From Vulcanimicrobiota bacterium (GTDB taxonomy: Bacteria > Vulcanimicrobiota > Vulcanimicrobiia > Vulcanimicrobiales > Vulcanimicrobiaceae): a DNA stretch of 64,000 bases. A program made the translations under genes and the position numbers. Positions within the stretch are counted from its first letter, which is position 1. Every line of letters begins with the position of its first letter. Where the stretch lies: the NCBI GenBank assembly GCA_027459645.1, contig DAIDHQ010000008.1, positions 62,001-126,000 of the forward strand. Direction: 5' to 3'. Below are positions 57,388 through 64,000 of this stretch, in pieces. Under the pieces are notes generated by a model. It was not told where the DNA came from. It saw only the letters and a list, made by a program, of their open reading frames with translations, and did no database searches.

Positions 57388-59493
57388 ATGGAACGACGCA
57401 CGAGCCTCGAGCGCGCGCTCACGATTGCTTTTAGCCTCGTGATCGTGGTCATGCTATTAATGGTGCCGGTCATGTACTGGGCAATGAGCGGCATCTCAAG
57501 CCAAGCCGACGTGCTCAACAAACGGGTCATCGCGGGACAATTGGCCTACGCCAAGGTCGCAAGCGACGCCGACAGCCTTCGCGCTGCGACCCTCGAAGCG
57601 GCGACCAGCACCGATCCCGCCAGCGGCGCGCAGCAGCTCGCCCTCGCCAAGACGCTCGTGAAGCAGTTCCCCGAAGACGAGCGCAAGATGACCGACATCT
57701 TCTGCCCGGTCGACAAGGCAAAGCTGCAGGCAAATCTGAGCGCGACGCAATGCTCGCTCGCAACCGACCCGATCGCCAAGCAGATCGGGCCGCTCGTCGA
57801 TACCTTCGGCACCAGCGCCAGCGTCTATGACTTCCAGGCCCTCTCCGCCGTCAGTTTGCTTTCATCCGGAAAAAATAAGGATGCGCTCAAGCAAATCAAC
57901 GGTGCTTCCGGCGCGGCGTATCAGAAGCAGAGCGCCGACGGCCAGGCGATGCTCAACGCCCTCACCAAGCTCGCCGCCGACCGCTATAACAGCCTGATCC
58001 AGGCCAAGAACCTCGCCCTCATTACGCTCGTCGCCGGTATCGGCATCGCCGTCGTGGTGGTCTTTATCTCGATGGGCTGGTTGCGCGGGCTTGTGCTGCG
58101 CAGCATCGGCCGCTGCGTCGCAATCTTCGAAGCGATGGGCACCGGCGATCTCTCCCAACGCATCAATTGGCACGGCACCGATCTGTTGGGGCGCCTGGGC
58201 AACTCGATCGACGAGTTCGCAGAACGAATCTCGGGCATGATGGCGCGCATCCAGCGCGCGGCCCTTACCGTGCAGACCGCGTCGGATAACAGCAACCGAA
58301 TCGCCGTCGAAGTCGACAACCGCGTCAAAGAAGAACTCAACGCGCTCTCGCAAGCGCTGAATTATTCGAGCGACCTCTCGACGCAAGCCGGCACCGTTGC
58401 CGACAACGCGGAAGCCGTCGCCCGCCGGGTCTCCGACATCTCGAGCGCGGTCGCGGAAATGACCGCCTCGATCCAAGAGATGGATCAAAACCTGTTGAAC
58501 CTGGCGACCGTCGTCGAACAGGCCGTAGCCAACACGCAGGAGATGTCCGCGTCGATCGTCCAGGTGGCCGGCAATGCCGATCGCGTGCGCGCGGAATCTA
58601 ACGTGACGGACCAGCAGGTCCGCGAAGGGCGCAACGAAGTGCTCGCGCTTTCGAAGGGCATGGGTTCGATCAGCGATACGGTCAAAGACGTCGTGGTCGA
58701 AATGCAAAGCCTCGACGGCGCCTCGCGGCAAATCGGCGAGATCCTCGGACTCATCGAAGAAATCGCCGACCAAACGAACCTGCTCGCGCTCAACGCCGCC
58801 ATCGAGGCCGCGCGCGCCGGCGAACACGGACGCGGGTTCGCGGTCGTCGCCGACGAGGTCCGCAAGCTTGCCGAAAATTCCGCTAGTTCGACCAAGCAGA
58901 TCGGCCAGCTCGTCGCCGACATCCAGCGTCGCACCTCGGCCGTGCTCGAACGTGCCGCACGCGCAAATTCGCTGGTCCAGAACAACGCCGAGTCGGCGAA
59001 TAACGTTACGCAGATGATTGAGGCCATCAGCACCCGCGTGACGGAGGTCGCTCAGCTTGTTTCCGAAATCAGTATCGCCACCACCGAGCAGGCCCGCTCC
59101 TCGGAAGAGCTTGCCAAGGCAAGCGAACAGATGGGCGCGATGACGCACGAGGCGGCCGCCACGATGCGCGAACAGGCCATCACGTCGAACCAGATCCTTG
59201 AAGGCGTCTCCGAGATCGAAAACCGCACGGCCCAAGTCGCGCGAGCCTCGATGGAGCAACAAGCCTCTATTCAAGGCCTGGGAACGCGCGTCTCGCAGAG
59301 CAGCGAGCTCGGCAACAAGAATTCCGAGGCGATCGGCGCCCTCGCTTCGAGCGCCGACGAGGTCCACTCGGAGGCCACGCAGCTCCACGAACTCGTCGGC
59401 CAGTTCCAGACCGGTAAGTCTTCCCTGGAAGACGGGAAAACTGGTAGTCAGAAAGCCCTGGAAGACCCGGGGGCCCTTGCGCTATCATCGTAA
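57388..59493 (+). CDS. Methyl-accepting chemotaxis protein
   Basis: A 701-residue transducer. It has a first membrane helix (about 12-33), a helical extracytoplasmic sensor of the four-helix-bundle type (34-205) with two cysteines (106, 122), a second helix (208-230), a HAMP domain and a long signalling coiled coil. The kinase-control tip is intact: '[20 protein letters not shown]' followed by '[19 protein letters not shown]'. No CheA, CheW, CheY or flagellar gene is in the window. In this genome context it could feed a type IV pilus-linked Chp pathway as well as flagellar chemotaxis. No ribosome site is evident before the ATG. Confidence 0.93.
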
Positions 59494-59814: not shown

Positions 59815-60570
59815 TCACTTTTTATAGACCACTACGGGCGTGCGAAGCGCCCGAAGATCGATTGCGGCTATGGGGCGCCGGCTGCGCCCCACTTGCTGCA
59901 AGATGGGATCGATCAGCGCGATCTTCTTTCCTAAATCGAGCCGGTCTCCCAACATCACGCGCACGCCGTCGCGCAAAACGACGTCCAGATCGCCGAAGCG
60001 ATCCTGCGAAACCTGCGTCACATCGACGTGCGCTTCTTGCAAGCGTGCGAGATCGGCGGTCATGGCAACGACGTGCGGCTCCGACAGAAAGCTTCCTGGA
60101 TGCGCGGCCACCTGCAGATCGTGCGCCTCGACGAGCGGTAGCAAGGCGAATTGCGGCGTGGCCTGCTGCAAGACACGCAACTGACGATCGATGACCAGAC
60201 GAGACGACGCCGTTGCGACGACGGCGAACGGCGTGCGTTCGGTCACGTCGATCCGCACCGAGGCGGGAAGCGTGCGATGCACCCTCGCCGTGTCGATATA
60301 GGGAATAGCAACGATTCGCCGCTCGATCGAGCGCACGTTCTGAAGCCAAAGATTTCGTTTCACGTCGATGCGCGCGGCCGTCAGAATGGCGTCCTTCGAT
60401 ACGACGCGGTTACCCGACACGTCGACGGCGTGCGGGTCGAGCGCGGGCCACGTCGCAAGCCAATACCCGCCAAACGCCGTCAGCGCGACCAGAATCGCGA
60501 TTAAAAACCAAAACGGGCGCAGACGCGCGGCGGCGCCGGCTTTACGGCGCCGGTTTCGTTTGCGGCTCAC
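59815..60570 (-). CDS. ftsQ: Cell division protein FtsQ/DivIB
   Basis: A 251-residue bitopic protein. A basic N-terminal tail ('VSRKRNRRRKAG') precedes one membrane helix (about 19-40), then a POTRA domain ('HAVDVSGNRVVSKDAILTAA' onward) and the FtsQ beta domain. FtsQ links FtsB/FtsL to the divisome. The start is GTG at 60570, overlapping the HAD gene's TGA (GTGA). Its usual partner genes ftsA and ftsZ are on the same strand but beyond the inserted chemoreceptor and small exported gene. Confidence 0.88.
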   Translation of the reverse strand: MSRKRNRRRKAGAAARLRPFWFLIAILVALTAFGGYWLATWPALDPHAVDVSGNRVVSKDAILTAARIDVKRNLWLQNVRSIERRIVAIPYIDTARVHRTLPASVRIDVTERTPFAVVATASSRLVIDRQLRVLQQATPQFALLPLVEAHDLQVAAHPGSFLSEPHVVAMTADLARLQEAHVDVTQVSQDRFGDLDVVLRDGVRVMLGDRLDLGKKIALIDPILQQVGRSRRPIAAIDLRALRTPVVVYKK

Positions 60571-61385
60571 GCGAGCACGTACCGTTCGAGCGCTTCGGCG
60601 ACGCCGTCTGCGGCTACGTCCGCAACGACGGCGCTCGCGACCTCGCGCAACTCTGGGGGAGCCGACCCCATCGCGATGCCGAGCGACGACGCCCGAAGCA
60701 ACGCAACGTCGTTCCACGAATCGCCGATCGCCGCCACCTGCGACATGTCGATGCGCAGATGCGCGGCGACGAAGCGCAAGGCGTCGCCCTTATCCACCAA
60801 GGGGTTGAGGATTTCGACGAACTCCGGATAGCTTCGCGTGACGTTCGCTCGCTGGCCGAGCGCTTCTCGCAGACGCGGCACGTATGCCGCCGAACGCTCG
60901 GGGTCGTCGATTACGACGGCTTTGGTGGCCGGACTGTACGCGAACGTTTCACGCAACGACTCGACGACGACCGGCTGCGCGCCCGAAAGTGCGGCGTAGA
61001 GATCCGAAAAACGATTCCGTTGCTCGCAAAAGTACTCATCGTTGCGGTAGAGCTGCAAATGCATCCCGTCGCGCTCGACGACGTCGACGATCGCAGCGAC
61101 CGTCTCCACGTCTATGGGCAGATCGCGCAACACCGCGTCGGAGCGCGGATCGATAACCGCGGCACCCTGATAACAGACCACGGGCGCGTCGAACCCCAGC
61201 TCCCGCGCAAAGGTCACCGCCGCGCGATACATGCGGCCCGTCACGATGCACCCCTGAACGCCGGCGTCGCGCATGCGCGCGACCGCGTCGCGCACGCGAG
61301 GGCGAAGGACTAAATCGCGGCCGATCAGCGTACCGTCCAGATCAAAGGCGACCAGACGATACTTCGATGGCACCGAGTCGATCAT
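60567..61385 (-). CDS. HAD-superfamily hydrolase, Cof/YidA type
   Basis: A 272-residue phosphatase. It has motif I 'VAFDLDGTLIGRD' with the nucleophilic Asp, motif II 'CIVTGRMYRAAVTFA', the conserved Lys in 'NPLVDKGDALRFVA', and motifs III/IV in 'AIGDSWNDVALLRASSLGIA'. The large cap (type C2B) is that of Cof-like sugar-phosphate or flavin phosphatases. It is coupled by ATGA to the hisD-like gene and by GTGA to ftsQ. Its substrate is unknown. Confidence 0.9.
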   Translation of the reverse strand: MIDSVPSKYRLVAFDLDGTLIGRDLVLRPRVRDAVARMRDAGVQGCIVTGRMYRAAVTFARELGFDAPVVCYQGAAVIDPRSDAVLRDLPIDVETVAAIVDVVERDGMHLQLYRNDEYFCEQRNRFSDLYAALSGAQPVVVESLRETFAYSPATKAVVIDDPERSAAYVPRLREALGQRANVTRSYPEFVEILNPLVDKGDALRFVAAHLRIDMSQVAAIGDSWNDVALLRASSLGIAMGSAPPELREVASAVVADVAADGVAEALERYVLA

Positions 61386-62665
61386 GCGCCGCTGCGCATC
61401 CGGGCGGTCTGTGCGTGTTGCGGGAGGCCTTCGAATTCGGCAAGCGCCGCGAGCGGTTGCGCGTCCCCGAGCATCCGCTCGCGCGAATTTTCGACTACGC
61501 TGAAGCTTCGCATGAATGCTCCGAGGGTCAGGCCCGATTCGAAGCGAGCTGCCCCGCAAGCCGGCTGCAGCGCGTTGATGCCGGCGAGCGCGTCCCCTTC
61601 GACGACCGGCGTCGCGTCGCCGACGAAAACCGCGCCGACGTGGCGCAGTTGCGCAAGATACGGTTCCGCATCGCGCAGGTGCAGAGCGACGCGTTCGGGC
61701 GCAAAAGAGTTGGCGACGGAGAGGACCTGATCGCGGTTTTGCGCGTGGATCAGGAAGCACGAGTTTTCGATCACTTCGGCGATGATCTCGCCGCGTGCGA
61801 GGGTCCGCACCTCCAGCGTATCCACCAGTTGCGCTACCGCTTCCAGCAACGGTCGCGATTCGGAAACGACGCCGACCCTTGCGCACACGTCGCGCTCGGC
61901 TTGCGTCAATAATTCGCCGGTGACGAGTTCGCTGTTCGCGCCGTCGTCTGCGATGACAAGCACCTCGGAGGGTCCCGCAAGACCGTCGATCGCGCACGTG
62001 CCGAAGACCTGGCGTTTCGCCTCCGTCACCAAACTGCCGCTTCCGCCGAAGATCTTGCAGACGGGTGCGATCGACTCGGTTCCAAATGCCGCCGCAGCAA
62101 TGGCCTCGGGACCTCCGACGGCGTAGAGTTCGTCGACCTCGCAAAGACTGCACGCGAAGAGCACGCCCGGATGAATGCGTCCGGCGGCATCCGGTTGTGC
62201 TAGTACGACGACGCGACCCACGCCCGCAATGCGGGCGGGCAACGCGGTCATCATCACGATCGACGCCGCGGAACCGGCACCTGCATAGGCGGCGATCGAC
62301 TCCAGCGGCCGATACCGCACGCCGTAGCGCGAACCGTCTTGATCGACGAAGTTCGAATCGGCATGGCGTTGGCGTTCGTGAAACCGCGTGATACGCGTCT
62401 TTGCAAGACGAAGCGCGTCGGCGATCTCCGGCGGCACGAGCGAACGCGCGCCTTCGTCCATCGGAATCGGCACGCGCAGATGCCCGAGATCGAAGCGCCC
62501 TTCGGTCACCGAACGCATTGCGTCGACGAGTGCGGCGTCCCCGCGCGTTCGCACCCCGGCGAGCGCGGCAGCTACTAGTTCGGCCTGCTCGCGCGAAGGC
62601 GACCATCCCGAACGGTACATGACGGCTAGCCGCCGGCTGTCGGAGGCGTCGATGACGCTAAGCAT
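61382..62665 (-). CDS. Histidinol dehydrogenase-like protein lacking catalytic histidines
   Basis: A 427-residue protein with the full HisD fold ('SIAAYAGAGSAASIVMM', 'IFGGSGSLVTEAKRQVFG', 'AIDGLAGPSEVLVIADD', C-terminal 'EGLPQHA'). Mapped on E. coli HisD, zinc ligand Gln259 is kept (Gln255), but zinc ligand His262 is Arg258. Catalytic Glu326 is kept (Glu324), but catalytic His327 is Arg325. Zinc ligands Asp360 and His419 are kept (Asp358, His417), while the usual 'NHVLPT' reads 'NALQPA'. So histidinol oxidation as known is unlikely. It is not in a his operon: it starts eight bases inside dnaE and overlaps the HAD gene. I infer a neofunctionalised paralogue. Confidence 0.85.
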   Translation of the reverse strand: MLSVIDASDSRRLAVMYRSGWSPSREQAELVAAALAGVRTRGDAALVDAMRSVTEGRFDLGHLRVPIPMDEGARSLVPPEIADALRLAKTRITRFHERQRHADSNFVDQDGSRYGVRYRPLESIAAYAGAGSAASIVMMTALPARIAGVGRVVVLAQPDAAGRIHPGVLFACSLCEVDELYAVGGPEAIAAAAFGTESIAPVCKIFGGSGSLVTEAKRQVFGTCAIDGLAGPSEVLVIADDGANSELVTGELLTQAERDVCARVGVVSESRPLLEAVAQLVDTLEVRTLARGEIIAEVIENSCFLIHAQNRDQVLSVANSFAPERVALHLRDAEPYLAQLRHVGAVFVGDATPVVEGDALAGINALQPACGAARFESGLTLGAFMRSFSVVENSRERMLGDAQPLAALAEFEGLPQHAQTARMRSGA

Positions 62666-64000
62666 CGCGCAGTTCCCCTACGTTTCCGCGTCCGAAGATG
62701 CGTTCGAGTTCGTCGCGCAGGCGATGATCGGAAGCGACGGTGCGCGAGAGCCGCTGGCTGCGGCCACGCGCGTGCAGCATGATCGGCACCTCACCGGGCC
62801 ATTCGTCGACGAGTGCAGCAAGCCGGTCGATCTGATCGCGCGACTGCACGTCGACGCGCCACCCGAGCACGGAACGCGCTGTCGCGGCGCGCGCGCTCGG
62901 AACGAACGGCGTTACCTCGTTCGCGCTCACCGAGAGTTCGATCGGCGGTTCTTCTCCGGGAGCCGCACCGGGGCGTTCCCGCAGACGCAGCCGTCCTTTG
63001 ACGATCAGGATCGCGTCGTCGACGAAGTACTGTTGCACGGCGGCATAGAGCTTCGCGAAAACCACGACGTCGGTCGTACCGGTCGTATCTTCGAGCGTCG
63101 CGATCAGAATCTGCTGCCCCGCTTTGGTGAGCGTGCGCCGCACGCTCGTCACCATCCCGGCCACGGTGACCGATGCGTCGTCCTCGGCCTCGCGCAGATC
63201 TTTTACCGGCGTCGCACCGGTCCGCGCCAGCTGCTCTGCAACGTCGGAGAGCGGATGGCCCGAAACGAAGATGCCGAGCGTCTCCTTCTCCCACGCCAAC
63301 GCCTCGCGATTGCTCGGGGGAGGGACGTTCGGCAGCGTGGGAACCAGCGACGGCGCATGTTCGGCCATATCGCCGAAGAGCGAGAATTGGCCCATTTCCG
63401 CCTCGCGCGAGGCATGCGCCGCGAGATCCATCGCAACGTCGACCGCGGCGAGCTTCTGCGCGCGATTTCCGGGCAACGTGTCCAGGGCGCCGCATTTAAT
63501 GAGCGCTTCGAAGACGCGCCGGTTTACCTGCTTGCCGTCGACGCGCTTGGCGAGATCGAAAAGATCAACGAACTTGCCGCCGTCTTCTCGCGCCGCGATG
63601 ATACTCTGCACGGCTCCTTCGCCGACGCCCTTGATGGCGGCCAAGCCAAAGCGAATGCGATCGCCGACGACCGCGAAGTCCACGAGCGATTCGTTGATGT
63701 CGGGCGGCAGCACTTCGATGCCGATCTTCTTCGCCTCGTCGAGATACTCGACGAGTTTGTCGGTCTTGTCCTTTACCGACGTCATGAGCGCGCTCAAGTA
63801 CGGCAGCGGATGATTGGCCTTGAGATAGGCGGTTTGATAGGCGATCCAGCCGTATGCGGCGGCGTGCGCCTTATTGAATCCGTATCCGGCGAAGGGTTCG
63901 ATGAACGCGAAGATCTGCTCGGCGAGATCGCGGTCGATGCCCGACGTCGCTTTCGCGCCTTCGACGAACTTCTCGCGATAGACGGGGATCTTATCCTTCT
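62658..64000 (-). CDS. dnaE: DNA polymerase III alpha subunit, C-terminal part
   Basis: The frame is open to the end of the window, so the first part of the gene lies beyond base 64000. The visible roughly 447 residues contain the end of the palm/fingers region ('GFNKAHAAAYGWIAYQTAYL'), the helix-hairpin-helix part ('IKGVGEGAVQSIIAARE'), a segment with 'KETLGIFVSGHPLSDVAEQL', the OB fold ('VAGMVTSVRRTLTKAGQQIL') and a C-terminal tau-binding domain. This is the replicative polymerase in the DnaE1 class by layout. It overlaps the hisD-like gene by eight bases. Confidence 0.96.
   Translation of the reverse strand, partial: KDKIPVYREKFVEGAKATSGIDRDLAEQIFAFIEPFAGYGFNKAHAAAYGWIAYQTAYLKANHPLPYLSALMTSVKDKTDKLVEYLDEAKKIGIEVLPPDINESLVDFAVVGDRIRFGLAAIKGVGEGAVQSIIAAREDGGKFVDLFDLAKRVDGKQVNRRVFEALIKCGALDTLPGNRAQKLAAVDVAMDLAAHASREAEMGQFSLFGDMAEHAPSLVPTLPNVPPPSNREALAWEKETLGIFVSGHPLSDVAEQLARTGATPVKDLREAEDDASVTVAGMVTSVRRTLTKAGQQILIATLEDTTGTTDVVVFAKLYAAVQQYFVDDAILIVKGRLRLRERPGAAPGEEPPIELSVSANEVTPFVPSARAATARSVLGWRVDVQSRDQIDRLAALVDEWPGEVPIMLHARGRSQRLSRTVASDHRLRDELERIFGRGNVGELRDA

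Follow-up and report, generated by a model that had tools for sequence, protein, structure and literature searches.

Histidinol dehydrogenase (HisD; PF00815, TIGR00069) is represented by structures from E. coli (1kae/1k75) and Brucella (4g07). The acid-base pair of the E. coli enzyme consists of His327 and Glu326 (PMC11382572). In the Medicago enzyme (HDH), zinc is bound by Gln299, His302, Asp401 and, from the other subunit, His460*; Asn251 binds NAD (PMC5585171). One protein of the HisD family, the DHPS-3-dehydrogenase HpsN, has left histidine synthesis and retains zinc, NAD use and a Glu318/His319/Asp352 set that corresponds to Glu326, His327 and Asp360 of E. coli HisD. The E318A and H319A changes lower its kcat/KM 580- and 240-fold, respectively, and the D352A variant is dead (PMC11382572).

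Pseudoenzymes that arose from metabolic metalloenzymes are already known. The carbonic anhydrase-related proteins VIII, X and XI of vertebrates are strongly conserved and acatalytic, having lost zinc-binding histidines (PMC2873310). Their fold is unrelated to that of HisD and the parallel is an analogy only. The same applies to HisZ, a HisRS paralogue of unrelated fold that no longer does the original job of the enzyme; its gene adjoins hisG-hisD in relatives with an intact HisD and is absent where HisD has degenerated. HisZ regulates HisG. A pseudoenzyme derived from HisD would be a new case: no paper naming both histidinol dehydrogenase and pseudoenzyme was found in the open-access literature, and the titles and opening lines of open-access abstracts held no matching description of HisD moonlighting or of histidine synthesis or auxotrophy in Eremiobacterota. 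Here we analyse a HisD homologue encoded in a 64,000-nucleotide stretch of bacterial DNA (the window).

The locus and the fold of its product

The hisD homologue starts with an ATG at 62665, sharing its first 8 nt with the end of dnaE, and ends with a TGA (61384-61382) that shares an ATGA with the ATG (61385) of a HAD hydrolase gene (Table 1). An earlier reading, made from the letters of the window alone (the sequence-only reading), had described the ORF, its strand and its overlaps with both neighbours, and our coordinates agree.

Table 1. Features of the hisD region in window coordinates.
Feature	Position	Strand	Basis or remark
Degenerate HisD (HisD pseudoenzyme candidate), 427 aa	61382..62665	-	ORF call, Pfam, AlphaFold, Foldseek
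dnaE, C-terminal part	62658..63998	-	Putative; name from the sequence-only reading; 8 nt overlap with hisD start
HAD hydrolase (PF08282, Cof type)	60567..61385	-	ATGA overlap with hisD stop
ftsQ-like ORF, next in cluster	59815..60717	-	Putative; name from the sequence-only reading and position before ftsA; true start may give a shorter ORF
R258 codon, aligned with zinc ligand His262	61892..61894	-	Alignment
R325 codon, aligned with catalytic base His327	61691..61693	-	Alignment
A365 codon, aligned with His367 of NHVLPT	61571..61573	-	Alignment
G210 codon, aligned with NAD-site Asn211	62036..62038	-	Alignment

The Pfam Histidinol_dh profile (PF00815) matches the window protein over its full length (346.9 bits against a cut-off of 27, E 2e-103), and the score with TIGR00069, the NCBI hisD model, is 338.6 bits against a cut-off of 243.8. 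The nearest solved structures by sequence are histidinol dehydrogenases, followed by HpsN. An AlphaFold (AF2) model has a mean pLDDT of 93.3, and Foldseek matches it to HisD structures, with a TM of 0.90 to E. coli HisD (1kae). By profile and by predicted tertiary fold the protein belongs to the HisD family, with which it also shares conserved core residues; the view that the overall fold is kept is borne out.

Replacement of active-site residues

Residue equivalences were taken from MAFFT alignments with intact relatives, in E. coli HisD numbering. The window copy carries the changes H262R, H327R, H367A, Q188E (E187) and N211G (G210). Kept residues are Y130, S237 (S233), Q259 (Q255), E326 (E324), D360 (D358), E414 (E412) and H419 (H417). 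The sequence-only reading had placed Arg at the equivalents of both His262 and His327, had seen the His of the NHVLPT motif replaced and had listed Gln259, Glu326, Asp360 and His419 as conserved, and every one of these assignments held (R258, R325 and A365; Q255, E324, D358 and H417). It had also allowed that a proper alignment might restore the histidines. They were not restored, and alignments with many relatives gave identical residues, ruling out an alignment artefact. The losses of the NAD-site residues Gln188 and Asn211 had gone unmentioned.

Measured against the described enzymes, the zinc-ligand set (Gln259, His262, Asp360, His419*) is incomplete, with His262 replaced by Arg258 and the other three kept, and the Glu326-His327 pair is broken, the Glu being kept and His327 replaced by Arg325. 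The NAD-binding Asn211, equivalent to Asn251 of the Medicago enzyme, is Gly210; this Asn is lost in every degenerate copy whose site is readable. The Glu318/His319/Asp352 set of HpsN is also incomplete, the His319 equivalent being Arg325, and an HpsN-type enzyme is ruled out on these residues.

The window protein could in principle have remained a histidinol dehydrogenase despite its altered site, as it keeps Q259, D360, H419, E414 and E326 and scores above the TIGR00069 cut-off. Against this stand the loss of H262, H327, H367 and N211 and the pathway context described below.

Origin of the degenerate copies

In Eremiobacterota relatives with an intact HisD the usual gene order is dnaE-hisZ-hisG-hisD-HAD-ftsQ-(MCP)-ftsA. 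At this locus the window and its kin lack hisZ and hisG, and hisD abuts dnaE. The sequence-only reading had set the gene apart from the his genes; this is correct for the window but not for its origin, since relatives carry hisZ-hisG-hisD at the exact position. A protein tree was built from 80 sequences, including 18 degenerate copies and 43 intact copies, the latter nearly all from the same locus. The degenerate copies all group in a single clade (SH-aLRT 96) that lies within the intact ones, the nearest intact relatives being G058/G097 (SH-aLRT 92), and the HisDs of his operons form a distant, separate clade (SH-aLRT 99). On this phylogeny the window copy descends directly from an intact HisD encoded at this very locus. 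In a tree of dnaE+HAD the degenerate copies fall into two supported groups, g1/g24/g16 and g4/g23, which may or may not share an origin, so that active-site decay may have set in once or twice.

The degenerate copies come from five genera and have diverged widely. At position 327 they carry R, L, Y or C, and at 262 they carry R, H, Q, V, L or I; one copy (L139) still carries H262, D360 and H367. The Arg/Arg/Ala pattern had been put forward as a possible mark of a clade, a role ruled out by the variation at 327 and 262. The most altered members of the clade are those of genus g16 (L027, L071 and L125), in which a deletion affects the region of the lid that bears D360 and H367.

Histidine pathway genes across the phylum

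Among 148 sampled genomes of the phylum (Eremiobacterota), 73 encode some HisD and 19 a degenerate one. Seven of these 19, including the genome of the window, carry a separate his operon. The other 12 have no other HisD, and HisB, HisG and HisI are missing from 12/12. From this gene content these 12 look like histidine auxotrophs, an appearance drawn from draft genomes of which 5 are 95-97% complete.

The sequence-only reading had raised the question of another, canonical hisD. The same genome has one at C40:184481-185641 (contig 40), inside a his operon. It retains 11/11 functional columns and lies downstream of hisG, an aminotransferase gene, hisB, a glutamine amidotransferase ORF, hisA and a fused His_biosynth-PRA-CH-PRA-PH gene. 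This last gene (L147:4657-5916) is one ORF with His_biosynth (HisA/HisF), PRA-CH (HisI) and PRA-PH (HisE) domains, and an apparent three-domain fusion of this kind was seen in 6/6 his operons checked (L147, L133, L134, L135, L136 and L137). Given that the HisDs of the separate operon form their own clade and that its presence is patchy, the operon may have been acquired horizontally. If histidine is made at all in the genome of the window, it would be made through this operon. With a canonical HisD in the same genome and the upstream pathway missing from the degenerate-only genomes, a residual histidinol dehydrogenase function for the window protein seems scarcely credible.

In 14 genomes without HisD at the locus and with a readable junction (L153-L164, L168 and L169), dnaE is followed directly by the HAD gene. 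Thus, hisD can be deleted cleanly, with no debris left, and the dnaE+HAD tree suggests several such deletions within genus g4.

Selection on the degenerate copies

Maximum-likelihood codon models, in which high synonymous divergence lowers the precision of omega, gave values of 0.06-0.18 for the degenerate copies: 0.124 over 12 full-length copies, 0.131 for the window copy and its two nearest, 0.101 for degenerate g4 copies, 0.089 for g23 copies with one g4 copy and 0.183 for the g16 copies with the lid deletion. The value for intact HisD copies was 0.107, and those for neighbouring genes were 0.09-0.11 (HAD), 0.06-0.09 (dnaE) and 0.17-0.27 (ftsQ). The degenerate copies are therefore under strong purifying selection, comparable to that on intact HisD and on the neighbouring genes.

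At columns conserved in intact relatives, retention in the degenerate clade is 38% for the 11 functional columns versus 80% for the 167 others, and 7/11 functional columns are mostly lost versus 26/167 of the others (Fisher p 8e-4). The far more distant HisDs of his operons keep 11/11 functional columns and only about 60% of the other columns. In the degenerate HisDs catalytic residues have been lost and the remainder is conserved under purifying selection, as is characteristic of a pseudoenzyme; the retention pattern marks a pseudoenzyme and not a gene in decay.

Decay was nonetheless considered, in the form of a relic awaiting deletion after its pathway had gone or been replaced. Such a course would suit the clean deletions in several sister lineages, the varied ways in which active-site residues were lost and the somewhat faster change of the window copy relative to its sister (49/285 versus 31/267 residues changed), which could also reflect relaxing constraint. 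However, the degenerate copies persist over five genera and a large divergence, and no verifiably disrupted one was found among those examined. About 2.3% of random single-base changes in the degenerate ORFs would create a stop. Two candidate frameshifts (L127 and L129) both lie at assembly N runs, and a frameshifted pseudogene was ruled out. Moreover, the g4 copies share degenerate states, which places the g4 branches after active-site decay, and omega on these branches is comparable to that of intact HisD. These observations make a relic quite improbable.

The ORF might instead be kept only because its translation supplies ribosomes to the overlapping HAD gene, as could be imagined from the overlaps at both ends and from an ATGA junction without a clear Shine-Dalgarno sequence. 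Although any reading frame would serve this purpose, omega stands at about 0.1, and some 80% of the conserved columns outside the active site are kept; in relatives without hisD the HAD gene follows dnaE directly, so that coupling works without it. The selection data and the clean deletions speak against this explanation, which we regard as very improbable, as they do against the relic.

A candidate HisD pseudoenzyme

The main rival to a pseudoenzyme is a changed enzyme, in which the HisD fold would catalyse another reaction without the HisD zinc site or the usual use of NAD, the Arg residues binding an anionic substrate. In its favour, purifying selection is strong, several pocket residues are fixed by lineage (A326, Y327, E360 and L356, each in 10/11 g4/g23 copies) and HisD relatives can switch substrate, as did HpsN (PMC11382572). 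HpsN, however, preserved its catalytic set through the change of substrate. In the degenerate copies, Asn211 is gone throughout, pocket positions are not uniform between sub-clades, nor within g24 itself (R versus L at 327), and the g16 copies lack part of the lid bearing D360 and H367. On balance, we consider a changed enzyme unlikely.

We favour as the probable explanation a HisD pseudoenzyme, kept after loss of the pathway for a role other than dehydrogenation, likely in binding or as a scaffold. The kept fold and the purifying selection point to a role with no need for histidinol dehydrogenation, as do the loss of NAD and zinc residues and the fact that HisD outlived hisZ, hisG, hisB and hisI. 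Reconstructed from the direct results (residue losses, ancestry, absence of pathway genes from degenerate-only genomes, selection and predicted fold), events may have run in the following order. An ancestor in this Eremiobacterota family would have carried a functional hisD within a dnaE-hisZ-hisG-hisD-HAD-ftsQ cluster. Loss of the histidine pathway presumably followed, with removal of hisZ and hisG and disappearance of hisB and hisI. The HisD protein would have been retained as replacements came in at its zinc, acid-base and NAD residues and, we infer, its activity was lost. The product would be a HisD-type dimer that acts through the fold and a remodelled pocket, which in the window copy would present Arg in place of the zinc ligand and of the base, beside the remaining Glu326, Asp360, Glu414 and His419. 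Its role may have been a second function of the ancestral HisD.

Counting against a needed role, the gene has been cleanly deleted in several close relatives, including some within genus g4; the role would thus be dispensable in some of them. The sequence-only reading had proposed a new substrate or a non-enzymatic role. A non-enzymatic, or at least changed, role is made likely by the second hisD, the fold and the selection, whereas a new substrate for an NAD-dependent dehydrogenase fares poorly, as metal, acid-base and NAD residues are all hit and relatives lose still more. A more specific scheme, possible but doubtful, is that a non-catalytic function of ancestral HisD predated pathway loss and alone survived in the auxotrophs, giving rise to a HisD-derived pseudoenzyme family that is co-translated with DnaE and the HAD phosphatase in a division-gene cluster and perhaps serves as a ligand sensor or scaffold.

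Intact, broken and deleted copies, and broken copies accompanied by a separate operon, occur together in this lineage and form a natural series for the passage from enzyme to pseudoenzyme. They also carry a warning for annotation: since a degenerate protein passes the curated TIGR00069 cut-off, likely auxotrophs could be scored as hisD-positive.

Other features of the gene cluster

The Cof-type HAD gene keeps its place next to dnaE irrespective of the state of hisD (intact, degenerate or absent), and its product is therefore probably not merely a phosphatase of the histidine pathway. Between ftsQ and ftsA, on the opposite strand, lies a gene resembling those of methyl-accepting chemotaxis proteins (57388-59493 in the window; also in L014, L113, L139 and L149); an MCP-like gene is present at this place in many relatives.
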